From Paraburkholderia sp. ZP32-5 (GTDB taxonomy: Bacteria; Pseudomonadota; Gammaproteobacteria; Burkholderiales; Burkholderiaceae), in NCBI RefSeq assembly GCF_021390495.1, contig NZ_JAJEJP010000002.1:2790001-2854000 (forward strand): a stretch of 64,000 nt of DNA, in the 5' to 3' direction. The translations under genes and the position numbers were made by a program. The notes under the pieces are model-generated. The model was given only the letters and a program-made list of their open reading frames with translations. It was not told where the DNA came from and made no database searches. Shown here piece after piece: positions 31,123-46,577 of the stretch; the stretch's first letter is position 1, and each line of letters starts with the position of its first letter.

Positions 31123-31159
31123 GTCTTGTCGTTCTGAAAACTGAATATCGAATAGTTCG

Positions 31160-32941
31160 TCAGCGCGCGCGGCGCTTGATCCACGAGGACACCGCGATCA
31201 CCAGCGCGATCAGCACGACGAGCGTGGTGGAAACCGCGGCGAGCGTCGGCGTGATAGCGAGCTGGATGTCGTCCCACATCTGCTTGGGCAGCGTCGTGTT
31301 GATGCCGCCGCTCACGAAGATCGCGATCGTCAGATCGTCGAACGACACGAGGAAAGCGAACAGGAACGCCGCCGTCACGCTGGCCATCAATAGCGGCAGC
31401 ACGACGGTGCGAATGCGCTGCCACGGCGATGCGCCCATCACACGCGCGGCATCGTCGAGTCGCCAGTCGAACCGCCGGAAGCCTGCAGCGAGCGTGACGA
31501 CCACATAAGGAATCGCCAGCACCGTATGGCCGATGATCAGACCGGTGTTCGTACCCGTCAGGCCGAAGCGGCTCAGCAGATACAGGAGCCCCACTGCGAC
31601 CACGATGCGCGGCACGATCAGCGGCGCGACGAGCAGCGCGAACAGCGGCTTGGTCGCGCGCTGTGGCATGCGGGTCATTGCCAGCGTCGCGCCGAAGCCG
31701 AGTGCGAGCGACAGCACGGCGGTGCCGAAGCCCACTTCGAACGAGCGGATCGTTGCGCTCTGCCACACCGGCGAGCCGAGGAACGTACCGAACCAGCGCA
31801 GACTGAAAAGCTTCGGCGGAAACGCAATGAAATCGCTCTTCGTGAACGCGTACGGAATCACCGACAGCACCGGCACCACCAGCACGATCAGGATCGCCAT
31901 CGTGAACAGGCCAAGCGGGCTGAACACGCGCACACCGTCGTATTGCGGTTGCAATCCGCCGCGCCGCCGCACGAGTGGCGCGCACAGGCGGCCCGCCGCG
32001 ATCAGCAACGCGAGCCTGAACCCCTGTGCGCGTGAGCCGCGCTGCTTGTCGCTCACTTCACCGGTCAGCGACGTGAGCCCGACCACGCGGTCGTAGACGA
32101 AGAAGATCGCGATCGAGCAGACCAGCAGCACAGTCGAAAGCGCGCCCGCGAAGTGCATGTCGAACAGTTCGAGCACCGACGAAATCACCAGTTGCGCGAT
32201 CATCGTTTCGCGCGGAGAGCCGAGCAACGACGGCACGATAAAGAAGCCGAGACTGGAGATGAACACCAGCAGCCCCGCCGCCGCCACGCCCGGCGAAGAC
32301 AACGGCAGAAAAACCGTGAAGAAGCTCGTGCTGCGCTCGGCGCCGAGCGTCTCCGCAGCCTGTGCGAGCCGATCGTCGATGCCGCGCATCACCGGCAGCA
32401 TCGTCATCACCGCGAGGGGCAGCATCGAATGCACCATGCCGATCAGTACACCGGTCAGTGACGGAATCGTGCCCGTGGTTTCGTGGACGAGACCGAGTGC
32501 GAGCGCAATCGTCGACAGCACGCCTGTTTTCGACAGCAGCAGCATCCATGCGTAGGTCTTGACGAGGTAACTGGTCCAGAACGGCAGCATGATCCACAGC
32601 AGCCAGCGTTCGCGCACGCGCTCCGACACGCGGCTCAACAGATACGCAACCGGATAACCGAGCACGATCGAAAACGCGGCCGTGATGAACGAGATCGCGA
32701 ACGTGATCCACAAGACCTTGGCGTAGACCGGCGTGCGCGCAATGCGAGCGAACTGCGCGAGGCCGAACGTGCCGTCGCCCGATACGAGCCCGCCTTGCAG
32801 AATCTCGCCGACCGGTACGATGAAAAACACCAGCAGGAACAGCAGTGTCGGCAAGACCGGCAGGATCCGTAGCGACGCGGCAAGCCATGCGCCGCGGCGG
32901 CGCGACGCATCGGCCGGATGCACGCGTAAAGCGAGAGTCAT
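31160..32941 (-). CDS. fused ABC transporter permease (PotB-PotC type)
   Basis: A 593-residue inner-membrane protein containing two complete permease units, each normally a separate polypeptide of about 280 residues. The first EAA loop is near residues 195-217 (AAETLGAERSTSFFTVFLPL), the second near 498-519 (AARVMGASPWQRIRTVVLPL). A hydrophilic linker of about 45 residues (290-335) joins them. Each unit has about six membrane segments. The ATG at 32941 has AGGAT upstream. It works with the ATPase and binding protein encoded just before it. I see no stop or frameshift at the junction. Confidence 0.9.
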   Translation of the reverse strand: MTLALRVHPADASRRRGAWLAASLRILPVLPTLLFLLVFFIVPVGEILQGGLVSGDGTFGLAQFARIARTPVYAKVLWITFAISFITAAFSIVLGYPVAYLLSRVSERVRERWLLWIMLPFWTSYLVKTYAWMLLLSKTGVLSTIALALGLVHETTGTIPSLTGVLIGMVHSMLPLAVMTMLPVMRGIDDRLAQAAETLGAERSTSFFTVFLPLSSPGVAAAGLLVFISSLGFFIVPSLLGSPRETMIAQLVISSVLELFDMHFAGALSTVLLVCSIAIFFVYDRVVGLTSLTGEVSDKQRGSRAQGFRLALLIAAGRLCAPLVRRRGGLQPQYDGVRVFSPLGLFTMAILIVLVVPVLSVIPYAFTKSDFIAFPPKLFSLRWFGTFLGSPVWQSATIRSFEVGFGTAVLSLALGFGATLAMTRMPQRATKPLFALLVAPLIVPRIVVAVGLLYLLSRFGLTGTNTGLIIGHTVLAIPYVVVTLAAGFRRFDWRLDDAARVMGASPWQRIRTVVLPLLMASVTAAFLFAFLVSFDDLTIAIFVSGGINTTLPKQMWDDIQLAITPTLAAVSTTLVVLIALVIAVSSWIKRRAR

Positions 32942-32978
32942 GAAAGATCCTTGGTGGCGAAGGCGCGTCAAGCGGGTA

Positions 32979-34040
32979 TCAGGCGTATAGCAGCGTGGTG
33001 CGATACGGGTCCCATGTGAGACCGACCGTTGCGCCGACGCGCGGACTCAGCGTGCGTGCGCATCGCGCGGTCAGTTCGCTGCCGTCGGGCAGCGACAGTT
33101 GCACGTGCGTATCGCTGCCGAAAAACACCACATCGTCGATACGACCATCGACAAAGCCGCGGCTCGGCTCGACCAGTTCCAGCGCCTCGGGACGCACCAG
33201 CAACGTATGACGCGCGGACGGCGTAGGCCTCGCCGTGCGCGGCAATGGAATGCGCGCGCCCGCTGCCAGCAGGATCGGTTCGGCGCCGGCATCCGGGCCA
33301 TCGGCGAGCGCGCCTTCCAGCAGATTCGAGTGACCGATGAAGCTGGCCGCGAAACGCGTGGCGGGCCGGTCGTACAGGTCCGCCGGTGTGCCGATCTGTT
33401 CGATCTTCGCGTTGTTCATCAGGCAGATGCGATCGGACAGCGTCAGCGCCTCATCCTGATCGTGGGTGACGTAGACGAAGGTCGCGCCCAATTCCTTGTG
33501 CAGACGACGGATCTCGGACTGCATGTGCTCGCGCAACTTCTTGTCGAGCGCGCCGAGCGGCTCATCGAGCAGGATCACGGAAGGCCGGTACGCGAAACAG
33601 CGCGCGAGCGCGATGCGCTGCTGCTGGCCGCCGGAGAGTTCCTTCGGAAAGCGCTTGCCGAACTCGCTCATGCGTACCATCGCGAGCGCGCCGTCGACTG
33701 CCTGACGCACTTCGTCGCGCGGCTTGCCGCGCATGCGCAGGCCGTACGCGACGTTGTCCCACACGCTCATATGCGGAAAAAGCGCGTAGCTCTGGAACAC
33801 CATGCCGATGCCGCGCTTACCTGGTTCGACGTGCGTGACATCGCGCCCGTCGATCTCGATGCGGCCCGAGCTCGGTGCGACGAGCCCCGAGATCATTTGC
33901 AGCAGCGTCGTCTTGCCCGATCCCGACGGTCCCAGCAGCGTCAGGAACTCGCCGGCCTGCACGCTGAGATCGGTCGGCTCCAGCGCGACGGTTTCGCCGT
34001 AACGCTTGCCGAGCCCGATCGCTTCCAGTTTTGCGGTCAT
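32979..34040 (-). CDS. ABC transporter ATP-binding protein (PotA-like)
   Basis: A 353-residue ATPase: Walker A LLGPSGSGKTTLL, Q-loop VFQSYALFPH, signature LSGGQQQRIALAR, Walker B VILLDEPLGALD, H-loop VTHD. A C-terminal TOBE domain (from about residue 280) is present, as in spermidine/putrescine and Fe/molybdate-type importers. It lies 37 bp upstream of the fused permease gene. Confidence 0.93.
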   Translation of the reverse strand: MTAKLEAIGLGKRYGETVALEPTDLSVQAGEFLTLLGPSGSGKTTLLQMISGLVAPSSGRIEIDGRDVTHVEPGKRGIGMVFQSYALFPHMSVWDNVAYGLRMRGKPRDEVRQAVDGALAMVRMSEFGKRFPKELSGGQQQRIALARCFAYRPSVILLDEPLGALDKKLREHMQSEIRRLHKELGATFVYVTHDQDEALTLSDRICLMNNAKIEQIGTPADLYDRPATRFAASFIGHSNLLEGALADGPDAGAEPILLAAGARIPLPRTARPTPSARHTLLVRPEALELVEPSRGFVDGRIDDVVFFGSDTHVQLSLPDGSELTARCARTLSPRVGATVGLTWDPYRTTLLYA

Positions 34041-34063
34041 GACAATGCCTCGCGTTCAGTGCG

Positions 34064-35125
34064 TCACGAAATGATCCACGAGTTGAAGCGCTCGGTGACC
34101 TTCTGACGGTTTGCCTGCCACCACTCCGGGCTCGGCAGCTTCATCGTCTTGATGTTGTCGGGCGCGGTCGGCAACAGCGGTGCGCGCTGCGCGGGAATCG
34201 ATTCGAACGACTTGCGATTGGTCGGGCCATACGCGAGCGTCTGCGTGAGCACCGCCTGGCGTTTGGCATCCGCGCAAAAGCGCACGAACTGTTTGGCCAT
34301 TTCAGCGCGCGGCGTGCCCTTCGGAATACCCCATCCTTCGATCGAATAAAGACCCTGATTCCAGACGATCGTCACGGGCGCGCCCGCGTCTTTCGCCGAC
34401 TGCGCGCGACCGTTCCACAGCGAGATCATGTCGACGTCGCCGCTCTGGATCGCTTGCATCGACTGTGCGCCGGAGGTCCACCAGATCGCGATGTGCGGCT
34501 TGATCTTGTCGAGACTCTTGAAAGCACGATCGACGTCGAGCGGATAGAGCTTGTCGAGCGGCACCCCGTCCGCGAGCAGCGCCTGTTCGAGCGTATCGAG
34601 CGGGCTGCGGCGCAGGCATCGGCGGCCGGGAAATTTCTTCACGTCCCAGAAGTCCGCCCACGACTTCGGGCCGTTGTCCTTGAACTTGTCGGCGCGATAC
34701 GCGAGTACCGTCGAATACACATCGACGCCAAGCCAGTCCGCCGTGATCGCCTCGGGCATCACGTCCGGAAAGTCCGAGGCCTTCAGGCCGATCGGTTCCA
34801 TCAGACCTTTTGCTTCGAGATACGGAATATCGGCGGATAGCGTCAGCGTGGTCACGTCCCACACGTAGTTCTTCGTCTTCACCATCGCTTCGAATTGCGC
34901 GACCGGCTGCGACTCCCGCGCCACGCTCACGACCTTGATGCCGGTCGCCTTTTCGAACGGATCGTAGAACGCCTCGCGATAAGCAGTGGTGTATGGACCG
35001 CCCGGATCGGATACGACGATCTGTTTGTCGTCGGCGTGCACCAGCGCCGGCATCACGCCGGCAAGCGCGACTGCGCCCGCGCCTTGCAATACCCGGCGCC
35101 GCTTTTCGTTGAAGTTCTGCGTCAT
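34064..35125 (-). CDS. ABC transporter substrate-binding protein (PotD-like), Tat-exported
   Basis: A 353-residue periplasmic binding protein. The N-terminus KRRRVLQGAGAVALAGVMPALVHA looks like a twin-arginine signal with cleavage near residue 31. The mature protein follows the spermidine/putrescine-binding fold (VVSDPGGPYTTAYREAFYDPFEKATGIKV). The polyamine-binding acidic residues cannot be confirmed by eye, and the operon's CoA ligase argues for a carboxylic acid or betaine ligand instead. An unusual GRRCLRRSP segment near residue 168 replaces the more typical G-x-R-alpha motif. Confidence 0.87.
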   Translation of the reverse strand: MTQNFNEKRRRVLQGAGAVALAGVMPALVHADDKQIVVSDPGGPYTTAYREAFYDPFEKATGIKVVSVARESQPVAQFEAMVKTKNYVWDVTTLTLSADIPYLEAKGLMEPIGLKASDFPDVMPEAITADWLGVDVYSTVLAYRADKFKDNGPKSWADFWDVKKFPGRRCLRRSPLDTLEQALLADGVPLDKLYPLDVDRAFKSLDKIKPHIAIWWTSGAQSMQAIQSGDVDMISLWNGRAQSAKDAGAPVTIVWNQGLYSIEGWGIPKGTPRAEMAKQFVRFCADAKRQAVLTQTLAYGPTNRKSFESIPAQRAPLLPTAPDNIKTMKLPSPEWWQANRQKVTERFNSWIIS

Positions 35126-35204
35126 GGCTATGGTCTCCCGCTCGCTAGCTAGGTCTGTGAAATCGTGCGTGGTGGTGCGTGGTGTGGTGGATGCGCGTGT
35201 CGTG

Positions 35205-35966
35205 TTACTTCGCGCGCTTGCGGAAGAACTCTTCCATCATGCGAGCGGGCTCGCCCGAGTCGTAAGCCTCGCGCTGGATGCGGATGCCCGCTTCGATACA
35301 GTCCTGGAAACCCGCTTCGGTCATTTCGCGGAAGCGCTGCTTGTCCAGACGCATCGCGACCGGCGGCTTCGCGGCAAGCTCGGTGGCAATCTCCAGTGCC
35401 TTGTCGAACACCTTCTCTTGCGCGACGAGGTGATGAATGAGGCCGATCTGCCTGCACTCTTCCGCGTCCATCAGGCGGCCGGTCAGCGTCAGTTCGATGG
35501 TGCGCGACATGCCGAGCATCGTGTTCATGATCCACGGGCCCGTGGTACTGGCGATGCCCGCGTTGATCTCCGGCTGCCCCATGCGCACGCCCGGATGACC
35601 GACGCGGATGTCGCCCAGCAGCGCGACCTGAAATGCCGAGCCCGCGGCCGTGCCGTTGAGCGCCATCACCAGCGGCTTCTTCAGGCCGCGCAACACCGCG
35701 TAGTAGCGCTGCCATTCCTTGACCCATTCCACCGCGCGCGCGCCGTCGAAATCGTGCGCCTCGGACAGATCCTGCCCTGCCGAGAACGCGCGATCTCCGG
35801 CGCCCGTCATGATGATCGCGGCGATATCGTCATCGCCATCGAAGCGTTCGAGCGCTTCGATGATCGCGTTGCGCATCGGCGTGGTCCACGCGTTCAGCTT
35901 GTCGGGACGATTCAGCGTGATGACCGCCACGCGGCCATGTTGGGACAACAGGATGTCTTCACTCAT
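35205..35966 (-). CDS. enoyl-CoA hydratase/isomerase (crotonase) family protein
   Basis: A 253-residue crotonase. The oxyanion-hole segment FSAGQDLSEAHD and the second GTAAGSAFQVALLGDIRVG are present. The usual second catalytic glutamate region reads MGQPEINAGIAS, with a Glu in place. First gene of the leftward ligase/ABC operon; an 80-bp gap separates it from the binding-protein gene. Its start is preceded by the box shared with the iclR promoter. It probably hydrates or isomerises the CoA ester made by the ligase at 29590. Confidence 0.87.
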   Translation of the reverse strand: MSEDILLSQHGRVAVITLNRPDKLNAWTTPMRNAIIEALERFDGDDDIAAIIMTGAGDRAFSAGQDLSEAHDFDGARAVEWVKEWQRYYAVLRGLKKPLVMALNGTAAGSAFQVALLGDIRVGHPGVRMGQPEINAGIASTTGPWIMNTMLGMSRTIELTLTGRLMDAEECRQIGLIHHLVAQEKVFDKALEIATELAAKPPVAMRLDKQRFREMTEAGFQDCIEAGIRIQREAYDSGEPARMMEEFFRKRAK

Positions 35967-36507: not shown

Positions 36508-37257
36508 CTATCTTGCCGAAGATAGCAATCGCCCGATCCCGCTCTCCAACAACCCCGCGTTCGGCTTGGCCGGCGGCTTCGCGAAACTGCCGGCCGTTGG
36601 CCGGATCGGCTTCAGCCTGGCGAGCGTCTCGGCCTGGCACACCGCGCTCGACACGCCATCGACGACCGGCACCGACAGTTCGCCCGCCACTTCGCGCGCA
36701 AGCCCCGCGAGCGGCGCGCCCGCGAGAATCAGCACGTCCGCGCCGTCCTGCTCGACCGCCTCGCGGCTCAGTTCGACGAGCCGCGCGCCGTGATCCCGCT
36801 GCACCGTCGACGGATCGCGCAGCGGGCGGTCCAGATGGCGGATGCCCGAGAGCCGGCCGAGCATGCCGTAGCGAGCGATGCATTCGCGATACCAGGCCGT
36901 GATGCGCCGCGAAATCGCGATGATGCAGATACGCTGGCCCATCTGCGCGGCGGTCATCAGCGCGGCCTCGGTCATGCCGACCACCGGCACGTCGAGCACC
37001 TCGCGCAGCTCCAGCAGCCCCGGATCGCCGAATGCCGCCACCACTAGCGCGTCGTAGCTGCCATACCGCTCGCCCGCGATGGTGGCGGTCGCATGCGCGC
37101 CGAGCAGCGCCTCGAAACGCGTCTCGATGTACGCGACGCCGCTCGCCGCGGTCGCCATCTCGATGTGCGTGTCGGCGTGCGCGACCCGGCGCGCCTCGGT
37201 TTCGATCAGCTCGGTGACGCCCGGCGTGATGTTCGGATTGACGATCAGCAGATTCAT
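36508..37257 (-). CDS. Asp/Glu/hydantoin racemase superfamily protein lacking both catalytic cysteines
   Basis: A 249-residue protein with the hydantoin-racemase layout: LLIVNPNI at the N-terminus, AFGDPGLLELRE in the middle and LAGAPLAGLAREVAGELSVPVVDGV late. In hydantoin racemases a Cys precedes FGDPG, and a second Cys lies in a GCAGM-type motif. Here these positions are A75 and G180. Two-base racemisation is therefore unlikely, and the protein may be a lyase, an isomerase of another kind, or a binding protein. It follows gntR by 13 bp. The ATG at 37257 is well placed. Confidence 0.78.
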   Translation of the reverse strand: MNLLIVNPNITPGVTELIETEARRVAHADTHIEMATAASGVAYIETRFEALLGAHATATIAGERYGSYDALVVAAFGDPGLLELREVLDVPVVGMTEAALMTAAQMGQRICIIAISRRITAWYRECIARYGMLGRLSGIRHLDRPLRDPSTVQRDHGARLVELSREAVEQDGADVLILAGAPLAGLAREVAGELSVPVVDGVSSAVCQAETLARLKPIRPTAGSFAKPPAKPNAGLLESGIGRLLSSAR

Positions 37258-37270
37258 GGCGAGTCCGTAA

Positions 37271-37999
37271 TTAGCCGAAGATTGCGGACAGATCGACTTC
37301 CGCGTCTTCGGGCAGCGATAGATCAAGCGTCGCTTCGATATGGTCGAGATGACCGACGGCCGCGGCGATCGCCCCTTCCAGATCGCCCTTCTGCATCAGT
37401 TCGATGATCTCGGTGTGCTCGTGATTTGGACATGCGGGCACGTTCGGCGAATCGAACAGCAGGATGATCAGGCACGTCAGCGACGCCAGTTCGCGCATCA
37501 GTCTCGTGAGCGGCGGGCTCGCCACCATTTCCGCGATCAGCAGATGAAACTCTCCCGACAGCCGGATCACCGCATGCTTGTCGCCCTTGTCGCGCGCCGC
37601 GCGTTCTTTCGCGACGTGTGCGTGCAGGCGGAGGAAATCGTCGGGATTGGCGCGTTCGACCAGCGTGCGGATCAGCGCCGGCTCCAGAATGCGACGCGCC
37701 TGGAAAATGTGCCGCGCGTCCTGCACCGACGGACTCGCGATGAACGCGCCGCGGTTCGGAATGGTCGTGACGATACCTTCGTGCGTGAGCCGCGCGAGCA
37801 CCTTGCGGATGCGCGTGCGATTGGTCCTGAACACGCTGGCGAGCTTTTCTTCGACGAGCCTGGTTCCCGGAATCAACCGGTGCTCCATGACGGCGGTCAG
37901 GATGCGCTCGTAAATCGGATCGGCGTGATCGTCGACGCCGAGGATCTGTCGGGTACTGCGCGTCCTGCGCACTCGCGGGGTCTCTTTCTCGGTCAACAC
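37271..37999 (-). CDS. GntR-family regulator of the cyclic-amide-type cluster
   Basis: GntR winged helix (YERILTAVMEHRLIPGTRL, TRIRKVLARLTHEGIVTTIPNRGAF) plus FCD effector domain, 242 residues from the chosen GTG. AAGGA lies 8 nt before this GTG. The longer reading from a TTG at 38032 has no ribosome site and would overlap an inverted repeat. It is divergent from the ABC/enzyme operon at 38343. TTGTCACAA boxes occur on both sides of the intergenic region, so it probably regulates both units. Confidence 0.83.
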   Translation of the reverse strand: MLTEKETPRVRRTRSTRQILGVDDHADPIYERILTAVMEHRLIPGTRLVEEKLASVFRTNRTRIRKVLARLTHEGIVTTIPNRGAFIASPSVQDARHIFQARRILEPALIRTLVERANPDDFLRLHAHVAKERAARDKGDKHAVIRLSGEFHLLIAEMVASPPLTRLMRELASLTCLIILLFDSPNVPACPNHEHTEIIELMQKGDLEGAIAAAVGHLDHIEATLDLSLPEDAEVDLSAIFG

Positions 38000-38021
38000 G
38001 CTCGATGTCCTTGCTACTTCA

Positions 38022-38060
38022 TTTTGTGTCAATGTGATTCTAGATTGTCACAACACAAAA
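38022..38060. promoter_or_regulatory. candidate GntR operator near gntR
   Basis: TTTTGTGT (38022-38029) and ACACAAAA (38053-38060) form an 8-bp inverted repeat. TTGTCACAA (38045-38053) lies within it and recurs twice in the operon promoter at 38298-38327. Confidence 0.55.
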
Positions 38061-38297
38061 CGGAACTTCTGAATTTGCACCACCGATGTTCGCGAGCACC
38101 ACCGCAGCGCGGCTTCGCTCGGTAAACGCACGAGATGAGTGCCGCGGTCGCCAGCGTCCGTCATCCAGTGCGGTCCATCGAGCGTTTGCCCGCCTGCCGC
38201 GCACCTTGCCGCAAGGCATTCGTCATCGGCGTTCACGCCTTCCCAAGCAGGAAGGCCGGCTATCGAGATCCATCTATTGGCACAGCAGTTGCTTTAT

Positions 38298-38327
38298 TTG
38301 TCACAAATTCAAATTATTTTGTGACAA
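38298..38327. promoter_or_regulatory. candidate GntR operator pair at the ABC/enzyme operon
   Basis: TTGTCACAAA (38298-38307) and TTTGTGACAA (38318-38327) are a perfect 10-bp inverted repeat with centres 20 bp apart (two helical turns). It ends 15 bp before the binding-protein start codon. Each arm contains the TTGTCACAA element also found near gntR. The region from 38061 to 38297 shows no gene. Confidence 0.65.
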
Positions 38328-38342
38328 TACGGAGCTTCTTCG

Positions 38343-39383
38343 ATGCAATTTGTCCGCCTGTCTCTCGCCACCCTGAAGCGCGCCGCCCGCACGCTCGTCG
38401 CGCCCATCATGGTGGCCGCCGCGTTCTTGCCTGTCGCCGCTCACGCCAGGGACGCCGAACCCGTCAAGCTCGGCTATGCAAAATGCGCGCACTGCACGCC
38501 ATTGTCGCTAACGCCGCAGTACGCCACCGGCGTCAAGCTCTCGGCGATATCGTTCAACACCGGCAACGACGTGCTGACCGCGCTGCTGTCCAAAAGTATC
38601 GACGTCGCGCAGGTCACCTACCTACACTACGTGACCGCGCTCGACAAAGGCTTCAAGGTGGTCGCTGTCTCCGGCCAGATCAACGGCGGCTCGCAGATCC
38701 TGATCGCCAACGATCTGCCGGTGCAGCCCGGCGACTGGGACGGCCTGAAGAAGCTGATCATGCAGTACAAAAAGGACGGCAAGCCGTTCCGCGTCGCCGC
38801 TTCGCGCGGCAACGCGCAGGATATTCACATGCGCGGCGCGTTCCTCACGCACGGCATCGACATCAACAAGGACGTGCAGTTCGTCAACATCCCGAACCCG
38901 TCCGATCACGTGCAGGCGCTGCGCCGCGGCGAGGTCGAACTGATCACCTCCGTTGAGCCGTTCGCCACGCAGATCCGCGACGTGAAGGCCGCGAAGTTCT
39001 TCGCGTTCCCGTACGACCAGGCCGCCGGCAAGCTGACCAACCTGATCGTCACGCGGCCGGATGTGATCGAGGACAATCCGCAGGGCGTGCTCGAAACGGT
39101 GCGCGCGATCGTCAAGGTCGATGATCTGATGGCGTCGAACAAGCCGCTGTTCATCGACACGATCCAGAAGGTGACGGGCCTCGACAGGACCATCGCCGCG
39201 GGCGCCGTCGACAACCTCGATCCGGACTACAGGATGTACCGTACTTCGGCGGTCGCGATCGCGAAGATGATGCACGACCTGAAGTACGTGAACTCGGATG
39301 TCAGCGATGCGGTGCAGAAGAATCTCGACTACAGCTTCCTCGAGAAAGTGACCGGCAAGCCGAAGACGCAACTGGGCTACTGA
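38343..39383 (+). CDS. NitT/TauT-type ABC substrate-binding protein
   Basis: A 346-residue periplasmic binding protein with a signal peptide (residues 1-36, ending VAAHARDA) and the NMT1/SsuA-like fold (SFNTGNDVLTALLSKSIDVAQVTYLHY). The family imports nitrate, taurine, sulfonates, pyrimidines such as the ThiY substrate, and other small ring compounds. The mature N-terminus has a C48-A-H-C51 motif not usual in the family, possibly a disulfide or metal site. First gene of the operon; a GGAG lies before the ATG. Ligand unknown. Confidence 0.85.
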   Translation: MQFVRLSLATLKRAARTLVAPIMVAAAFLPVAAHARDAEPVKLGYAKCAHCTPLSLTPQYATGVKLSAISFNTGNDVLTALLSKSIDVAQVTYLHYVTALDKGFKVVAVSGQINGGSQILIANDLPVQPGDWDGLKKLIMQYKKDGKPFRVAASRGNAQDIHMRGAFLTHGIDINKDVQFVNIPNPSDHVQALRRGEVELITSVEPFATQIRDVKAAKFFAFPYDQAAGKLTNLIVTRPDVIEDNPQGVLETVRAIVKVDDLMASNKPLFIDTIQKVTGLDRTIAAGAVDNLDPDYRMYRTSAVAIAKMMHDLKYVNSDVSDAVQKNLDYSFLEKVTGKPKTQLGY

Positions 39384-39395
39384 CAGGAAATCGCA

Positions 39396-40217
39396 ATGGC
39401 ATCCCTGTCCTCGTCACGTCTTTACCGGCGCATCGAGCGCGGCATCGTGCCGGTGCTGCTGCTTGCCGGCTGGGAAGCGTTCTCGCGCTCCGGCATCCTG
39501 CCGGCGGCGCTGCTGCCCGCGCCGTCGCAGGTGCTGATCGCGTGGGCCGACTGGATCTTCTCCACCGACGGCAACACGCAGACCTACTCCGGCCACTGGC
39601 TCTTCGACATCGCCGCGAGTGCGGGCCGCGTGTTCGCGGGTTTCGGCATCGCCACCGTGCTGGGCGTGGCGATCGGCATGGCGATCGGCTGGTCGCGCGC
39701 GGTCGAATCGCTGGTCGAGCCGACCTTGCAGACGCTGCGCCCGATCCCGCCGGTGTCGTGGATCCCGCTCGCGATCATCTGGTTCGGCATCGCCAACAAA
39801 CCGGCGATTTTTCTCGTGTTCATGGGCTCGTTCTTTCCAGTCCTGCTGTCCACCATCCACGGCGTGAAAACCTGCGACCGCAATCTGCTGCGCGCGGGTG
39901 CGATGACCGGCGGCACGCCCAGCATGTTGTTGCGGCACATCGTGTTTCCGGCCGCGCTGCCGAGCATCTTCTCCGGCCTGCGTATCGCGATCGGTTCGGC
40001 GTGGATGCTGACCGTGACCGCCGAAATGGTGGCGGTGAAGAGCGGCGTCGGCTACGTGCTGTGGGATTCGTATTACTTCCTGCGTTACGACATCGTGATC
40101 GCGTCGATGGTCAGCATCGGGCTGCTCGGCTACGTCAGCGACTGGGCGATCAAGCAGATCGCTGCCCGCGCGCTGCGCTGGCAGCACGGTTCCACCTTGC
40201 AGGCACGCGGAGGTTAG
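39396..40217 (+). CDS. NitT/TauT-type ABC permease
   Basis: A 273-residue inner-membrane permease with six predicted helices. The cytoplasmic loop [38 protein letters not shown] is the EAA motif of the SsuC/TauC/ThiX group. It lies 12 bp after the binding-protein gene and 4 bp before the ATPase gene. Confidence 0.92.
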
Positions 40218-40221
40218 GCAC

Positions 40222-40992
40222 ATGGCACTCATTACCGTCGACGGCGTGTCGCGCACGTTCGAAGACAGCAAACGCAAGCAGACCGTGATTGCGCTCGACA
40301 ACGTGAGCCTGAAGGTCGAGCGCAACGAATTCTTGTGCCTGCTCGGCCCGAGCGGCTGCGGCAAGTCGACCCTACTGAATTTGATCGCCGGCTTCGACAA
40401 GCCGTCGTCGGGCACCGTCAGCGTCGGCGGATCGGTGGTCACGCAGCCGGGCGCCGATCGCGGCGTCGTGTTCCAGCAGGCCAACCTGATGCCTTGGCTG
40501 CCGGTCTGGGAAAACGTCGCGTTCCATCTGAAGATGCGCGGCGTCGCGAAAGCGGAGCGGCGCGAGCGCGCGCAACGCTACATCGCGATGGTCGGGCTGA
40601 AGGGCTTCGAAAATCACTTTCCGAGCGAACTGTCCGGCGGTATGAACCAGCGCGTCGGCATCGCGCGGGCGCTCCTGATGAATCCCGAAGTGATCCTGAT
40701 GGACGAGCCGTTCGGCGCGCTCGACGAGCAGACGAAGATGGACATGCACGCCGAGCTGATCCGCATCTGGCGCGAGAGCCGCAGCACGATCGTGTTCGTC
40801 ACGCACGGCATCGACGAATCGCTTGCGCTGGGCACGCACGTCGCGGTGATGTCGGCGCGGCCGGGACGCATCCGCGAACTGATCCCCATTGAACTCGACC
40901 GCCCGCGCGATCCGACCGGCGCCGCCTTCAACGATTACAAGCGCCACATCCTGTCGCTGCTGCGCCCGGAAACGGTCACGGAGACGGCCTGA
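40222..40992 (+). CDS. NitT/TauT-type ABC ATPase
   Basis: A 256-residue ATPase: Walker [15 protein letters not shown]-loop [10 protein letters not shown], signature [13 protein letters not shown], Walker [17 protein letters not shown]-loop VTHGIDE, the last with the Gly common to the SsuB/TauB group. It completes the importer. Its TGA stop is 1 bp before the ATG of the epimerase-like gene, so the importer and enzymes are translationally linked. Confidence 0.93.
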
Positions 40993-40993
40993 C

Positions 40994-41974
40994 ATGACGG
41001 TGTTCATCACGGGCAGCAGCGGTTTCGTCGGCCTCGCGCTGACCGAGCATCTGCTCGCGCGCGGCGACACGGTGATCGGCTTCGATCGCCATCCGCCGCG
41101 CGAATCCGCCTGCCGCGCATTCGCCGCGCTGCCGGGCCGCTTCGTGCCGCTGACCGGCGACGTCCGCGACGCCGACGCGCTCGAAGCGGCGATGCGCGCG
41201 CACCGGCCGTCGCGGCTCGTCACGCTCGCGGCAATCACCGCCGACGCGCAGCGCGAGCGCGCCATGCCGCAGACGATCTTCGAAGTCAACGTGGGCGGCG
41301 TGCTGGCTGCGCTGCACGCCGCGTCGCGCAGCGGCGGCATCGGCCGCGTGGTGCACATCAGTTCCGGCTCGGTCTACGGCGAAAGCGGCCGCGACCATGC
41401 GCGTCGGCTCGTCGAAGAAATCACGCCGCTCGCGCCCGAGGGCCTGTACGGCATATCCAAGCGCGCCGCCGAAGACGCCGCCCGGCGGATCGCCGGGCTT
41501 TACGGTCTGCCGCTGACCATCGGCCGGCTCGGCACCTGTTTCGGTCCGTGGGAAGCGGACAGCGGCGTGCGCGACACGTTGAGCGCGCCCTTGCAGGTGC
41601 TCGAATGCACGCGCCGTGGCGACACCGCGATCCTGCCGCGCGCGCACCGCCGCGACTGGCTGTACGTGCGCGACGCCGCCGCGGCGATCGTCGCGCTGCT
41701 CGATACGCCGGCGCTCGCGCACGACCTGTACAACCTCGCGGCCGGTTTCGCATGGAGCGTCGTTGACTGGTGCGAGCGGCTCGCCGCGCGCGATCCGCGT
41801 ATCGCGTGGCGCATCGCGTCACCGGACGACACGCCGAACATCGACTACTACGCACCGTACGATCGCGCGCCGATGGACATCGCACGCCTCGTCGCTGATA
41901 CGCCCTTCGTGCCGCACTTCGATCTCGCGCACGCCGAAGCCGATTTCCACCGCTGGCTCGATACCCCGACATGA
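40994..41974 (+). CDS. NAD-dependent epimerase/dehydratase family protein
   Basis: A 326-residue extended short-chain dehydrogenase. GSSGFVGLALTEHLLARG binds NAD, VVHISSGSVYGE holds the Ser, and YGISK supplies the Tyr/Lys pair. Related enzymes include nucleotide-sugar epimerases and acid dehydrogenases such as D-erythronate dehydrogenase. The absence of sugar-nucleotide genes here favours a small-molecule dehydrogenase (inference). The ATG at 40994 is one base after the ATPase stop, and the 3' end overlaps the SDR gene by 4 bp. Confidence 0.8.
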   Translation: MTVFITGSSGFVGLALTEHLLARGDTVIGFDRHPPRESACRAFAALPGRFVPLTGDVRDADALEAAMRAHRPSRLVTLAAITADAQRERAMPQTIFEVNVGGVLAALHAASRSGGIGRVVHISSGSVYGESGRDHARRLVEEITPLAPEGLYGISKRAAEDAARRIAGLYGLPLTIGRLGTCFGPWEADSGVRDTLSAPLQVLECTRRGDTAILPRAHRRDWLYVRDAAAAIVALLDTPALAHDLYNLAAGFAWSVVDWCERLAARDPRIAWRIASPDDTPNIDYYAPYDRAPMDIARLVADTPFVPHFDLAHAEADFHRWLDTPT

Positions 41975-42777
41975 CGACGACGCCCGCTCCCTACTCCGCC
42001 GCGAGCCTCGCGATGGACGGCAAGGTCTGCATCGTGACCGGCGCCGCCTCCGGCATCGGCCGCGCAATCGCGCGCCAGCTCGCGGCCAACGGCGCGCGCG
42101 TGGTGATCGCCGACGTGACCGACACGGTCATCGAAGGCGGCGAACCGACCGCCACGCTGATCGAACGCGACGGCGGCCACGCGTACGCGATCGCCACCGA
42201 TGTCAGCGACACCGCGCAGGTGGACGCGCTGATCGCGCGGACGGTCGAGCGTTTCGGGCATCTCGACGTACTGGTCAACAACGCCTGCATCCGCCACGCG
42301 CGGCCCCTGCTCGATCTCGACGAAGCCGACTGGCAACGCGTGATCGACGTGAATCTGGGCGGCGTGTATCGATGCTGCCGCGCAGCCGTGCGCCAGATGA
42401 TCGCGCAGCCGGACATCGGCGGCGTGCGCGGACGCATCGTCAATCTGTCGTCGCAGCACGGCATGATCGCCGCGCCAGGCGATCTCGCGTACGGCGCCAG
42501 CAAGGCCGCCATCGATTACCTGACGCGACAGATCGCCACCGACTATGCGCCGCAAGGCATCGTCTGCAACGCGGTCGCGCCGGGCAAGATCCAGACCGGC
42601 GCGGGCGGCCGCGCGCTCGATCCGGACGTGCTCGAGCGCGCCACGCGCCGCACGCCGTGGCCGCGTCTCGGCGACCCCGACGACGTCGCGCGCGCGGTGC
42701 TGTTTCTCGCCAGCGACCTCTCGACCTTCACCACCGGCGCCACGCTGATGGTCGACGGCGGCTGGATGGCCGCATGA
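41971..42777 (+). CDS. short-chain dehydrogenase/reductase
   Basis: A 268-residue classical SDR: TGAASGIGRAIARQLAANGA for the cofactor, NNACIRHARP, catalytic Ser in IVNLSSQHG, YGASK for Tyr/Lys, and the C-terminal FTTGATLMVDGGW. It would oxidise or reduce an alcohol/ketone intermediate of the pathway. Start and stop overlap its neighbours by 4 bp each (ATGA). Confidence 0.88.
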   Translation: MTTTPAPYSAASLAMDGKVCIVTGAASGIGRAIARQLAANGARVVIADVTDTVIEGGEPTATLIERDGGHAYAIATDVSDTAQVDALIARTVERFGHLDVLVNNACIRHARPLLDLDEADWQRVIDVNLGGVYRCCRAAVRQMIAQPDIGGVRGRIVNLSSQHGMIAAPGDLAYGASKAAIDYLTRQIATDYAPQGIVCNAVAPGKIQTGAGGRALDPDVLERATRRTPWPRLGDPDDVARAVLFLASDLSTFTTGATLMVDGGWMAA

Positions 42778-44165
42778 CGCCGACGCAAGCCCCACCCCCG
42801 CTCGATCTGCTGATCACCGACGCGACGCTCGTCGACGCGGACGGCGTGGCCCGGCAGGCGGCGCTCGGCATTCGCGGACCGCGGATCGCCTGGCTGGGCG
42901 AATCGTCGCAACAGGCAGCGCCGTTGCCGACAGCGGCGCGCGTGCTGTCGCTGCCCGACCGCGTGATCGTCCCTGGCTTCGTCAATGCGCACTATCACGC
43001 GGGCCTCAATTTCGCGCGCGGCGTCGCGCCCGATTGCGGCTTCGCGCCGTCGTATACGCCGGGGCTGCCGCAGGCGTCGTGGCTCGAACCGGACGAAGCG
43101 TGGGCGCTGTCGCGGCTCGGTGCGCTCGAAGCGCTGCGCGCGGGCTGCACGACGCTCGTCGACAGCTTCGTGCACGCCGAATCGACGATCGAAGGCATCG
43201 CGCAAACCGGGGTGCGCGTGTTCGCGAGTCAGCGTCTGGCCGACGTCGATTTCGCGTCCGTGCTCGCGGGCGAGCGCCGCTTCGATCGCGCGCGCGGCGA
43301 GCGCCAGCTGGAACGCGCCGACGCGTTTGTGGCGCGCTGGGCCGGTCGCGCGAACGGCCGCATCCAGGCGCATCTGACCGCGCACGCGCCCGACACCTGC
43401 TCCGCCGATCTGCTGAAGGACATCGGCGCGCTCGCCTGTCGTCTGAACCTGCCGGTCAGCACGCATCTCGCGCAGAGCGCCGACGAAGTCGCATGGGTGC
43501 GCGCCACGCATGGCCGCTCGCCGGTCGAACTGCTCGACGACGTCGGTTTGCTCGACGCGCGGCTCCTCGCCGGCCACTGCATCCACGTCGACGACGGCGA
43601 CATCGGGCGCCTCGGCAGAAGCGGCGCGCACGTCGTGCATATTCCGCTCGGCAACGCGATGTCCGGCCGCATTGCGCCGACCCGCCGCCTTGCCGACGCG
43701 GGCGCGCCGCTCAGCCTCGCCACCGACACGATGCACGGCGACATGCTCGAAGCAATGCGCTGGGCGCTGGCAATGGGCCGGCTGCAAAGCGGCGCCATCG
43801 ATCCCGCCTGGCAGCCGCGCGACGTGCTGGCGATGGCGACGCGCAACGGTGCCGACGCGCTCGGCTGGGGCGCGCGCCTCGGCCGTCTCGCCGTCGGGCA
43901 ACTCGCCGATCTCACGATCGTCGATACGCGCCGCCCGCACCTGACACCCTGCATCGACGCCGCCGCCCTGCTCGTGCACAACGCGAGCGGCGCGGACGTC
44001 GAAAGCGTGATCGTTGACGGCCGCTTCGTGATCGAAGCGGGCCGCGCGATCTGCGTCGACGAACACGCGATCCGCACCGAAGCCGAGCGCGTCTGCCGAG
44101 CCGTCTGGCGGCGCTGTCCGCAGCCGCTGCGCGCCTATCCACCCGTTTCTTCCAACCGACCATGA
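42774..44165 (+). CDS. amidohydrolase of the deaminase/chlorohydrolase (TrzA/SsnA) group
   Basis: A 463-residue metal-dependent hydrolase. The HxH metal pair is H73/H75 (VNAHYHAGLNF). Later ligands are in STHLAQSADEV, LAGHCIHVDDGDI and LATDTMHGDM (Asp). The C-terminal composite barrel ends with the family's LADLTIVDTRRPH and VIVDGRFVIEAGR. Relatives deaminate or dehalogenate N-heterocycles (guanine, 8-oxoguanine, cytosine, triazines). The real start is the ATG at 42774; the same frame is open far upstream inside the SDR and epimerase genes but is not coding there. Confidence 0.85.
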   Translation: MTPTQAPPPLDLLITDATLVDADGVARQAALGIRGPRIAWLGESSQQAAPLPTAARVLSLPDRVIVPGFVNAHYHAGLNFARGVAPDCGFAPSYTPGLPQASWLEPDEAWALSRLGALEALRAGCTTLVDSFVHAESTIEGIAQTGVRVFASQRLADVDFASVLAGERRFDRARGERQLERADAFVARWAGRANGRIQAHLTAHAPDTCSADLLKDIGALACRLNLPVSTHLAQSADEVAWVRATHGRSPVELLDDVGLLDARLLAGHCIHVDDGDIGRLGRSGAHVVHIPLGNAMSGRIAPTRRLADAGAPLSLATDTMHGDMLEAMRWALAMGRLQSGAIDPAWQPRDVLAMATRNGADALGWGARLGRLAVGQLADLTIVDTRRPHLTPCIDAAALLVHNASGADVESVIVDGRFVIEAGRAICVDEHAIRTEAERVCRAVWRRCPQPLRAYPPVSSNRP

Positions 44166-44887
44166 GCCGACGTCTGCGCCTTGGCGTTCTCACGCCATCC
44201 TCCAATACTTCGCTCGAACCGCTCACGCAGCGGCTCGTCGCGGGACTGCCGGAAGTCAGCGTGCATTTCGCACGCTTCTCCGTCACGCAGATCGCGCTCA
44301 GCGCCGACGCGCTCGGCCAGTTCCAGAGCGATCGCATTCTCGCCGCCGCGCGGCTGCTCGCCGATGCGCACGTCGACATCATCGGCTGGAGCGGCACCGC
44401 CGCGGGCTGGCTCGGCTTCGATCAGGACGTCGCGCTGTGCGAAGCGATCACCGGCGCGACCGGCGTGCCCGCGAGCACCTCGGTGCTGGCGCTCAATCGC
44501 GCGCTCGATGCGTACGGCGTGCGCCGTCTCGGGCTGGTGTCGCCGTATCTCGACGACGTGCAGTGCAGGATCGTCGACAACTACGCGGCGCTCGGCATCG
44601 ACGCGTCGTGCGAAAGCCATCTCGGCATTCAGGAGAATTTCGCCTTCGCGCTCGTCGACGAAGCGACGCTCGACCGCCAGGTGGCCGAGGTGGCGGTGGC
44701 GGGCGCGCAGGCGATCGCGACCTACTGCACCAATCTGTATGCCGCGCATCGCGTCGCGCATTGGGAACAGCAGCACGGCGTGCCGGTGTTCGACACGGTG
44801 ACGACCGTGGTGTGGGACATGTTGCGCCGTCTTGGCGTGGATACCCGCCGCATCGACGGCTGGGGCCGACTTCTGCAGGAAATCTGA
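44162..44887 (+). CDS. arylmalonate decarboxylase / maleate isomerase family protein
   Basis: A 241-residue member of the Asp/Glu racemase superfamily. Aligned by eye with arylmalonate decarboxylase, G78 (WSGTA) matches the Gly74 of that enzyme and C189 (ATYCTN) matches its single catalytic Cys188. Maleate isomerases and racemases have a second Cys at the first position, which is absent here. This points to decarboxylation of a malonate-like acid, or to a EutA-like role, rather than isomerisation (inference). It overlaps the amidohydrolase gene by 4 bp and is 1 bp from the dihydropyrimidinase gene. Confidence 0.75.
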   Translation: MSRRLRLGVLTPSSNTSLEPLTQRLVAGLPEVSVHFARFSVTQIALSADALGQFQSDRILAAARLLADAHVDIIGWSGTAAGWLGFDQDVALCEAITGATGVPASTSVLALNRALDAYGVRRLGLVSPYLDDVQCRIVDNYAALGIDASCESHLGIQENFAFALVDEATLDRQVAEVAVAGAQAIATYCTNLYAAHRVAHWEQQHGVPVFDTVTTVVWDMLRRLGVDTRRIDGWGRLLQEI

Positions 44888-44888
44888 T

Positions 44889-46328
44889 ATGCCGCACTTC
44901 GACACCGTCATCCGCAACGCGCGCGTCGTCACCGCCGCGGACATCTTCACCAGCGACATCGGCATTCGCGACGGACGCATCGTCGCGCTCGGTCTCGATC
45001 TCGACGCGGGCGCGCGCGAGATCGACGCGGCTGGACGCCACGTGACGCCGGGCGGCGTGGACAGCCACGTGCACTTCGACCAGCCGACCGGCGACGGCTC
45101 CATCATGGCCGACGACTTCCTGTCCGGCACGACCTCGGCGGCCTGCGGCGGCACCACCACGGTGATTCCGTTCGCGTGCCAGCAAAAGGGCCACACGTTG
45201 CGCGAAGCGATCGACGATTATCATCGGCGCGCGGGTAACAAGCCGGTGATCGACTACGCGTTCCATCTGATCGTCACCGACCCGACGCCGCAGATCCTGA
45301 AGGAGGAACTGCCCGCGCTGATTGCGGAGGGCTATACGTCGTTCAAGATCTACATGACGTACGACGCGCTGAAGCTCTCCGATCGCGAGATTCTCGATAC
45401 GCTGCTGGTGGCGCGCAACGAAGGCGCGATGGTGATGATCCACGCGGAAAACGCCGACTGCATCGCATGGCTGACCGAAAAGCTGCTCGAAGCGGGCCAC
45501 ACCGCGCCGCGCTATCACGCGACGTCACGGCCGATGCTGGTCGAGCGCGAAGCGACGCATCGCGCGATTTCGCTTGCCGAAGTGGTCGACGTGCCAATTC
45601 TGATCGTGCACGTATCCGGCCGCGAAGCGGTCGAGCAGATTCGCTGGGCACAGAGCCACGGTCTGAAGGTGTACGGCGAAACCTGTCCGCAATATCTGTT
45701 TCTGACCGCCGATTCGCTCGGTTGCGACGACAGCTTCGAAGGCGCGAAATGCATCTGTAGTCCGCCGCCGCGCGACAAGGCCAATCAGCAGGTGATCTGG
45801 GACGGACTCGAGAACGGCTCGTTCGAAGTGTTTTCGTCGGACCATGCGCCGTTCCGTTTCGATGGTCCGGACGGCAAGAAAGTGCATGGCGAAAACGTGT
45901 CCTTCGATCAGATCGCCAACGGCATTCCGGGCGTCGAGACGCGCATGGCGCTACTGTGGTCCGAAGGCGTGCGGCGCGGGCGCATCACGCCGCAGAGCTT
46001 CGTCGCGCTGACTTCGACGAATGCGGCCAGGCTATACGGACTGTATCCGCGCAAAGGCAGCATTGCGATCGGCGCGGATGCGGATCTGGTGATCTGGGAC
46101 GAGAGCGGTGAAGTCGAGATTACCAATGCGAAGTTGCATCACAACGTCGATTACACGCCGTACGAAGGCATGCGCGTAAGCGCCTGGCCAGCGCTGACGA
46201 TGTCGCGCGGTGACGTCGTGTGGGACGGCCAGACTCCTTGTGGCAAGGCAGGACGCGGCGAGTTTTTGCCGTGCGCGCGGCCGGAGCCAGCCAGACCGCG
46301 CCGGCGCAAGACGCTGCTTCCGATCTGA
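44889..46328 (+). CDS. dihydropyrimidinase/hydantoinase
   Basis: A 479-residue cyclic amidohydrolase. Two-metal site: H60 and H62 (SHVHFDQP), carboxylated K153 (SFKIYMTYD), H185 (IHAEN), H241 (IVHVSG) and D318 (SSDHAPF). The SPPPRDKANQ loop is typical of dihydropyrimidinases and D-hydantoinases. It opens five- or six-membered cyclic ureides or imides. No beta-ureidopropionase or carbamoylase is nearby, so the ring-opened product must be handled elsewhere or by the unusual neighbours. Last gene of the operon. Confidence 0.9.
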   Translation: MPHFDTVIRNARVVTAADIFTSDIGIRDGRIVALGLDLDAGAREIDAAGRHVTPGGVDSHVHFDQPTGDGSIMADDFLSGTTSAACGGTTTVIPFACQQKGHTLREAIDDYHRRAGNKPVIDYAFHLIVTDPTPQILKEELPALIAEGYTSFKIYMTYDALKLSDREILDTLLVARNEGAMVMIHAENADCIAWLTEKLLEAGHTAPRYHATSRPMLVEREATHRAISLAEVVDVPILIVHVSGREAVEQIRWAQSHGLKVYGETCPQYLFLTADSLGCDDSFEGAKCICSPPPRDKANQQVIWDGLENGSFEVFSSDHAPFRFDGPDGKKVHGENVSFDQIANGIPGVETRMALLWSEGVRRGRITPQSFVALTSTNAARLYGLYPRKGSIAIGADADLVIWDESGEVEITNAKLHHNVDYTPYEGMRVSAWPALTMSRGDVVWDGQTPCGKAGRGEFLPCARPEPARPRRRKTLLPI

Positions 46329-46489: not shown

Positions 46490-46577
46490 TGGTGGGCCGG
46501 GTGGGGTTCGAACCCACGATGTCCTTTCGGAGGTGGATTATGAGTCCACTGCCTGCAACCAACACGGCGTCCAGCCC
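46490..46577 (-). tRNA. class II-shaped tRNA-like gene with CAU anticodon
   Basis: 88 nt with encoded CCA. The 7-bp acceptor pairs GGGCTGG with CCGGCCC (one G-U). The anticodon arm is GTGGA-CTCATAA-TCCAC (anticodon CAU), and the T arm is GTGGG-TTCGAAC-CCCAC. A 15-nt variable region contains a TCC-GAAA-GGA mini-hairpin, as in Leu/Ser/Tyr tRNAs, whereas CAU tRNAs (Met, Ile2) are class I. Position 8 is A and position 14 is T, the reverse of the invariant U8-A14. Annotation programs may call it tRNA-Met or tRNA-Ile2. It follows rpoD, separated by two hairpins. Confidence 0.8.

Follow-up and report, generated by a model that had tools for sequence, protein, structure and literature searches.

Which compound would a bacterium break down with a hydantoinase and a relative of arylmalonate decarboxylase (AMDase) that are encoded side by side? 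This question is raised by ten genes at positions 36508-46328 of a 64,000-nucleotide stretch of Paraburkholderia sp. ZP32-5 DNA (contig NZ_JAJEJP010000002.1, positions 2,790,001 to 2,854,000; hereafter the window), in which a racemase-family gene (rac) and a regulator gene (gntR) face genes for an ABC importer with its solute-binding protein (SBP), an epimerase-like and a classical short-chain dehydrogenase (SDR), an amidohydrolase (amh), an AMDase-like protein (amd) and a D-hydantoinase/dihydropyrimidinase (dhp). An earlier note, made from the DNA alone, had proposed an undescribed catabolic system here. The answer that we prefer, to which we give a little less than an even chance, is a catabolic operon under the control of a GntR-FCD regulator: a cyclic ureide or imide, probably anionic, would be imported, opened by Dhp and then decarboxylated by Amd.

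Recurrence of the unit across genomes

A search profile was built from the window Amd and 22 of the 119 other listed proteins of its family. Its best 80 matches, which are the closest relatives, gave 79 distinct loci in named genomes; some of these end at contig ends, and the gene counts are lower bounds. As controls, 19 loci around amd paralogues with 24-34% identity were used (16 from the same genus, including two from this genome, and three from the same order), in two of which the paralogue itself falls under the threshold of the script. The comparison of gene neighborhoods, which the earlier note had called for, reveals that the unit recurs: dhp is present in 59/79 amd loci versus 0/19 control loci (Fisher p ~8e-10, which is optimistic since the loci are related), and rac in 54/79 versus 0/19. 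A FAH-family gene is found in 25/79 amd loci and in one of the 19 controls. The other genes of the 79 loci encode an MFS carrier (41 loci), a NitT/TauT-type SBP (16), a beta-lactamase-family protein (16), UbiD (14), the amidohydrolase (13), the epimerase (11), the SDR (11) and an amidase-signature enzyme (10). Where amd and dhp occur together, they are adjacent in 52/59 loci (centers 1.06-1.15 kb apart) and lie 4-8 kb apart in the remaining 7.

Type A loci, in which rac and gntR face SBP-permease-ATPase-(epimerase-SDR)-(amidohydrolase)-amd-dhp, are found in Paraburkholderia, Cupriavidus gilardii, Stutzerimonas, Pseudomonas, Halotalea, Klebsiella and Acerihabitans, and additionally on plasmids of Azospirillum and Methylobacterium nodulans (amd identity 46-53%); the copies span Beta-, Gamma- and Alphaproteobacteria. 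rac is not seen in the Azospirillum type A stretches that were examined, and M. nodulans groups dhp, SDR, epimerase, SBP, GntR, permease, ATPase, a short amidohydrolase open reading frame, amd and rac. The epimerase, the SDR and the amidohydrolase are accessory. All three are missing from the unit in L018 (Paraburkholderia xenovorans LB400), L023 and L024 (in L018, an amidohydrolase/amidase pair lies approximately 4 kb beyond it), the amidohydrolase is missing from L013, L017 and L025, which keep the epimerase and the SDR, and these two are missing from L070 and L080; the gene order is altered in L080 and L086. The oxidation of a side chain by the two dehydrogenases, which the earlier note had suggested, is therefore not shown to be an obligatory step. 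The importer and dhp are the most constant part of the unit, which suggests the cyclic compound as the imported ligand.

Type B loci, mainly from Cupriavidus, Ralstonia and Paraburkholderia, consist of GntR, MFS, amd, dhp and rac, and type C loci (Aromatoleum, Azoarcus and one metagenome-assembled genome) of MFS, amd, rac and FAH, with dhp set apart. Type D, with 14 loci, is a different unit around the same amd subfamily: amd stands with UbiD and two Amidohydro_2 proteins, in most loci together with an NCS2 permease and a gene resembling 8-oxoguanine deaminase (for example, L064, L029, L047, L053 and L104), and in four with a molybdenum hydroxylase instead (L051, L052, L055 and L067). LysR, UbiX and a CobW-type GTPase are named in the type D loci that were examined closely, the latter two being annotated in L104.

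The distribution of the unit is sporadic. The amd subfamily (at least 52% identity) is present in 18/58 genomes of the genus (counting the present one), and a search of 150 genomes of the family detected the SBP in eight, only two of which belong to the genus. Five of the six SBP loci outside the genus were fetched: all five contain gntR, SBP, permease, ATPase and dhp, four of them with amd and without rac, and the fifth without amd. The genes of the unit co-vary, with correlations of pairwise distances of 0.877 for amd-dhp (60 sets; 0.933 within type A, 17 sets), 0.708 for amd-rac (55 sets; 0.872 in type A) and 0.750 for dhp-rac (54 sets; 0.922 in type A), none of which was reached in 2000 permutations. 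Weaker values are obtained for amd-SBP (0.663, reached by 0 of 2000) and gntR-SBP (0.477, reached by 29 of 2000). Vertical inheritance and shared ancestry contribute to this co-variation, yet the presence of the unit is sporadic.

Neighboring genes were considered as clues to the substrate and set aside because they are inconsistent among the loci. A glycerate kinase and a transketolase lie beside two Azospirillum copies and not beside three copies of the A. brasilense group, uraH/uraD lie near one Defluviimonas copy, RidA and DUF3830 occur in Rhizobium, and a 3-hydroxyisobutyrate-dehydrogenase-like gene is located near the Klebsiella copy. The beta-lactamase-family genes of 16/79 loci were likewise not consistent enough to serve as a clue. 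DUF3830 lies near amd in 7/79 loci (e.g., L106, 12031-12450, and L103, 12073-12480), and its name was not found in the literature searched. The amidase and the FAH protein that accompany related loci have no close orthologue in this genome (best matches 35% and 34%, respectively). Additionally, homologues of Amd with approximately 60% identity are present in filamentous fungi (Emericellopsis, Macrophomina, Aspergillus, Talaromyces, Colletotrichum; P0067, P0068, P0092, P0098 and others), which suggests transfer from bacteria.

Active-site residues of Dhp and Amd

The assignment of Dhp as a canonical, competent hydantoinase is supported by its residues and model scores. It reaches 548 bits with TIGR02033 (cut-off 393) and 815 bits with PRK13404 (cut-off 647), and it scores under the cut-off of the allantoinase model (263 of 358 bits). 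Residues H60, H62, K153, H185, H241, D318, Y158 and N344, which we take to be the metal ligands (HxH, Lys, His, His, Asp) and the substrate residues (Tyr and Asn), are intact in 65/65 cluster copies. Ring opening by an enzyme of the dihydropyrimidinase type, as proposed in the earlier note, agrees with this residue set and with both curated models. Dhp is not the sole hydantoinase of the genome, as two paralogues (55% and 50%) are encoded elsewhere.

For Amd, the residues of AMDase that define the catalytic pair, the pocket and the motifs were taken from PMC4996985. G78, T79 and Y129 are present in 120/120 distinct homologues at the positions of AMDase G74, T75 and Y126, and C189, at the position of AMDase C188, in 119/120, with one gap. 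Position 80 (AMDase S76) is Ser in 97/120 homologues; the window protein is one of the 23 that have Ala. The dioxyanion-hole set T75, S76, Y126 and G189 corresponds to Thr, Ala, Tyr and Thr190 in Amd. F162 replaces AMDase M159, the motifs GWSGTAAG and ATYCTNLY differ around residues 74 and 188, and the alignment to AMDase-type proteins is ambiguous in the region of the pocket residues L40, V43 and Y48. N15 and N159 of Amd are located where the maleate isomerase NicE has Asn; the functional roles of the NicE residues used in this comparison are presumed.

Among 17 control paralogues, position 78 is Cys in 12, five of them maleate-isomerase-like. The only other Gly78 is found in L115 (G049:C3:3401500-3420500, same genus), whose paralogue has the AMDase motif LMGTSLSF together with SCGGL, and Pro-Pro, Val and Gly at the positions of Amd Ser13-Ser14, Asn159 and Thr190. 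This paralogue is a probable true arylmalonate decarboxylase. Two assignments of Amd itself were set aside: as an AMDase proper, it has the Gly/Cys pair but not the alignable pocket residues, and as a maleate isomerase, it has Gly78 in place of the first active-site Cys, as do 120/120 distinct homologues. No characterized member of the Amd subfamily was found. The AMDase-type center bears out the description of Amd as arylmalonate-decarboxylase-like, and the protein probably works like AMDase.

Rac and the amidohydrolase

Rac aligns over its full length to the hydantoin/allantoin racemase 3QVJ, with A75 and G180 at the positions of the two catalytic Cys of 3QVJ. Both Cys are missing in 55/55 cluster copies and in 121/121 sequences (the window protein and the best 120 of 4597 matches; the two sets overlap and are related). 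The specificity of this Cys test is limited in that the allantoin racemase 5LFD also lacks the first Cys, with the second present. The term "racemase-like" used previously thus describes the family of Rac and not its residues; Rac was rejected as a two-Cys racemase, and racemization by this protein is doubtful.

In Amh, the metal set H73, H75, H231, H268 and D318 is present in 120/120 distinct sequences (the best 120 of 728 matches, the window protein included), and the position three after the third His, which is the Glu of the H-x-x-E motif, is Gln (Gln234) in 119/120 and Glu in one. This Gln is found in 13/13 cluster copies, whereas five PDB relatives and three other amidohydrolases of related loci have Glu. 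The normal deamination step expected in the earlier note is not supported by this Glu-to-Gln replacement; an ordinary deaminase of the cytosine-deaminase group was set aside for Amh, and ordinary deamination is doubtful. The usual labels "racemase" and "deaminase" are probably wrong, because the residues that define these names are missing in both proteins.

A conserved motif between gntR and the importer genes

The sequence TTGT(N)ACAA occurs at 31 sites in 17 gntR-SBP gaps, including that of the window, and N is C or G in all printed sites. In shuffled gaps, the mean is 0.08 and the maximum 2 (500 mononucleotide shuffles). The density is 4.6 per kb in the gntR-SBP gaps versus 0.09 per kb over the whole loci. 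Four copies are present in the window, three of them inside the 310-bp gntR-SBP gap, and the exact paired motif (spacing 5-25) is found once in the 9.09-Mb genome, ahead of the importer genes (Table 1). TTGTSACAA is a putative GntR operator. The motif shared in this divergent promoter region, the conserved order and the sporadic presence support the view of the earlier note that the genes constitute one catabolic unit.

Proposed pathway

In the proposed operon, the ABC importer would take up a ring compound, and Dhp would hydrolyze a ring amide, a step that is supported at the level of residues. The opened carbonyl most likely adjoins the carboxylate-bearing carbon, because dhp and amd form a recurrent pair, and the product would be a gem-dicarboxylate; examples of such substrates are a 5-carboxy-(dihydro)pyrimidine, a 5-carboxyhydantoin or some other ring from which opening yields a malonate. 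Since a malonate results when a ring is opened at a carbonyl that adjoins a carboxylated carbon, we infer decarboxylation by Amd, which is plausible: one carboxylate would be removed as CO2 in a cofactor-free, AMDase-type reaction with Cys189 as the putative proton donor. Side-chain oxidation by the epimerase and the SDR would probably serve a broader range of precursors, and the Gln-containing amidohydrolase probably hydrolyzes a C-N bond, either in a further precursor or in the ureide that is released. In several relatives, it is accompanied by an amidase-signature enzyme, which may perform a decarbamoylation step. Routes that start from the thiamine pyrimidine or from 5-carboxyuracil are guesses at the substrate; the closest paper in the literature searched concerns fungal thymine 7-hydroxylase.

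A more specific version of this scheme, which is possible but rather unlikely, is a natural pathway of the AMDase type: the hydantoinase would make the malonate in place from a carboxylated cyclic ureide, Amd would decarboxylate it as a hybrid of the AMDase and maleate-isomerase types, and Rac and the Gln-containing amidohydrolase would be conserved enzymes of undescribed reactions.

Several observations weigh against ring opening followed by decarboxylation. Amd has S13 S14, N159 and Thr190 in place of AMDase Pro14-Pro15, Val156 and Gly189, and it stays under the curated cut-offs, with 73 bits where AMDase requires 225 and 83 where EutA requires 318. Because it is under these cut-offs and the AMDase pocket residues are missing, the substrate would be no ordinary arylmalonate, and the decarboxylation itself is a prediction. 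amd occurs without dhp in 20/79 loci (14 with UbiD/Amidohydro_2; a few cut by contig ends), and the importer and dhp occur without amd at L177; the pair is therefore not obligatory. The operon genes provide neither a complete route after decarboxylation nor a decarbamoylation step, and the Cys-less racemase homologue is not explained by the scheme.

Alternative explanations

The classical hyu arrangement places a hydantoinase beside a neighbor of the hydantoin-racemase family, as is the case for dhp and rac, and a hydantoin-type amino-acid pathway has to be considered. A 5-substituted hydantoin would be racemized, opened and then decarbamoylated by a carbamoylase encoded elsewhere, with Amd as a second racemase or an accessory protein. 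Three genes of the TIGR01879 family (carbamoylase/allantoate-hydrolase type) do exceed the cut-off elsewhere in the genome, so the earlier statement that a carbamoylase is missing holds for the operon and not for the genome, and an amidase is present in 10/79 related loci. However, the loss of both catalytic Cys throughout the Rac copies and closest homologues, the loss of the first Cys in Amd and the lack of a carbamoylase in the operon render this pathway unlikely. A cyclic-imide pathway, in which Dhp would act as an imidase on an unsaturated imide and Amd would isomerize the resulting cis-diacid to a fumarate-type acid, fits the database label "maleate isomerase" for Amd, the matching Asn15 and Asn159, and the single cyclic amidohydrolase family in which published abstracts place both hydantoinase and imidase. 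It is nevertheless quite improbable, as the first active-site Cys is Gly in 120/120 distinct Amd homologues, whereas the five maleate-isomerase-like controls have Cys.

We attach the same low probability to a barbiturate-type route, in which Dhp would open a 5-substituted barbiturate or oxidized pyrimidine to a ureidomalonate, an amidase would free urea, and Amd would decarboxylate the substituted malonate. The precedent is the oxidative pyrimidine route, in which, according to PMC3758960, barbiturase and ureidomalonase yield malonate and urea, and the amidase-signature enzyme of 10/79 loci points in the same direction, as does a more distant one (35-36%) that follows dhp in three records of the A. 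brasilense group. The known barbiturases belong to another family (AtzD/Bar), the partner amidase has no close orthologue here (best 35%), and no operon enzyme is known to make a barbiturate. Finally, the operon lies within an island of approximately 29 kb that holds phthalate-type genes, and its genes might be a loose assembly that serves no single pathway. The conserved order, the coupling, the promoter motif and the co-variation over three proteobacterial classes argue against this explanation and make it very improbable.

Gene content and genomic setting

The gene calls were checked by open reading frames and DNA, and the families by Pfam and NCBIfam scans; the host genome of 9.09 Mb is in four contigs. 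The families given in the earlier note hold for all ten genes (Table 1). The tight coupling by 1-bp gaps or ATGA overlaps that it described applies to the five enzyme genes, with 4-bp ATGA overlaps at epimerase/SDR, SDR/amidohydrolase and amidohydrolase/amd, and 1-bp gaps at ATPase-epimerase and amd-dhp, but not to the importer genes, which are 12 bp (SBP-permease) and 4 bp (permease-ATPase) apart. An SBP, a permease and an ATPase of the NitT/TauT family are found together in the operon; the best NCBIfam models for the ATPase are SaoA, TauB and NtrCD, each under its own cut-off, and no PDB sequence matched the SBP at E<=0.01.

Table 1. Positions and assignments of the operon features in the window
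Feature	Position	Strand	Assignment and residues
rac	36508..37257	-	Asp/Glu/hydantoin-racemase family, PF01177 4e-39; A75, G180 at both catalytic Cys positions
gntR	37271..38032	-	GntR regulator, FCD subfamily; PF00392, PF07729
Putative operator TTGTCACAA	38045..38053		gntR side of gap
Paired putative operators TTGTCACAA-N12-TTGTGACAA	38298..38327		Ahead of importer genes
SBP	38343..39383	+	NitT/TauT-type (NMT1_2), PF13379 1e-20
ABC permease	39396..40217	+	PF00528
ABC ATPase	40222..40992	+	Nitrate/taurine type, PF00005
Epimerase (extended SDR)	40994..41974	+	NAD epimerase/dehydratase family, accessory; PF01370 3e-41; GSSGFVG, YGISK
SDR	41971..42777	+	Classical SDR dehydrogenase, accessory; PF13561 3e-68; YGASK
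amh	42774..44165	+	TRZ/ATZ/SsnA-group amidohydrolase, accessory; PF01979 5e-50; Gln234 at catalytic Glu position
amd	44162..44887	+	AMDase/maleate-isomerase family; PF17645 3e-19; N15, G78, T79, A80, Y129, N159, C189
dhp	44889..46328	+	D-hydantoinase/dihydropyrimidinase; TIGR02033, PRK13404; complete metal-ligand set
tRNA-Met	46490..46577	-	Borders island carrying operon

The tRNA-Met/rpoD region is conserved in the genus, as a 321-bp probe matched 58/58 genomes, many only partly. In 8/16 relatives, DNA that matches approximately 10.2-17.2 kb of the window reaches within 0.9 kb of tRNA-Met; approximately 5 and 10 kb lie between this block and tRNA-Met in L163 and L155, and the remaining six have no such block in the fetched stretch (one being a contig end of 1.9 kb). 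The stretches of all 16 relatives, each up to 15 kb long, were free of operon genes at orthologue level. Because the block continues to the tRNA in relatives and the operon is missing there, the region from approximately 17.2 to 46.5 kb (~29 kb) of the window is taken as an island. No exact copy of at least 16 bp of the tRNA 3'-end stretch was detected elsewhere in the window. The G+C content is 0.70 in the 40-44 kb step and 0.60-0.65 in the other 4-kb steps.

Elsewhere in the island, translations that resemble a phthalate set were read as those of a Rieske-type oxygenase, a Gfo/Idh-type oxidoreductase, a 4,5-dihydroxyphthalate-decarboxylase-like protein, an MFS carrier and a reductase; for these, the family scan gave weak or no names. 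At 29590-35966, genes for an acyl-CoA ligase, a polyamine-type ABC importer and an enoyl-CoA hydratase are directed away from the operon.

Comparison with known systems

The hyu gene set comprises a hydantoinase, a hydantoin racemase and an N-carbamoylase. As in that set, the operon combines a canonical D-hydantoinase with a protein of the hydantoin-racemase family, whereas its racemase homologue is Cys-less, a carbamoylase is absent, and an AMDase-like protein, an importer, two dehydrogenases and an amidohydrolase are added. With the Pyd and allantoin pathways, the operon has in common a member of the dihydropyrimidinase/allantoinase superfamily, but it lacks dihydropyrimidine dehydrogenase, ureidopropionase and allantoate hydrolase. 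The exclusion of both routes in the earlier note is upheld: PydA/PreA and ureidopropionase are missing in the operon, the genome matches to the PreA model are under the cut-off, and Dhp is under that of allantoinase. The oxidative pyrimidine route is alike in its logic from cyclic ureide to malonate and in the amidases of some relatives; the operon, however, would open the ring by a hydantoinase and not by AtzD/Bar, and it contains no amidase. No assigned pathway with this gene set was found in the open literature searched, a result that is limited to these searches and does not show that no such assignment has been published.

Amd belongs to the same fold family as the maleate cis-trans isomerase NicE (4FQ7/4FQ5), with which it has Asn15/Asn159 and the second Cys in common, but its subfamily consistently has Gly at the position of the first active-site Cys. 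The database names "racemase", "maleate isomerase" and "deaminase" imply residues that are missing here, and automatic pathway calls are likely wrong. The conserved promoter motif and the SBP offer direct handles for finding the substrate.

PMC4996985 states that the natural substrate of arylmalonate decarboxylases is unknown, and its classification section names TTT, TRAP and ABC transporters and mandelate-racemase-type proteins among their neighbors; "dihydropyrimidinase" occurs 0 times in the text of the paper. Compared with AMDase (EC 4.1.1.76), Amd lacks Pro14-Pro15, Val156 and Gly189 and has two Asn of the maleate-isomerase type, but it has the equivalents of Gly74, Thr75, Tyr126 and Cys188 without the first Cys, and Ser76 is kept in 97/120 homologues. 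A widespread unit that pairs a single-Cys relative of AMDase with a hydantoinase provides a concrete and testable setting for AMDase-type chemistry.

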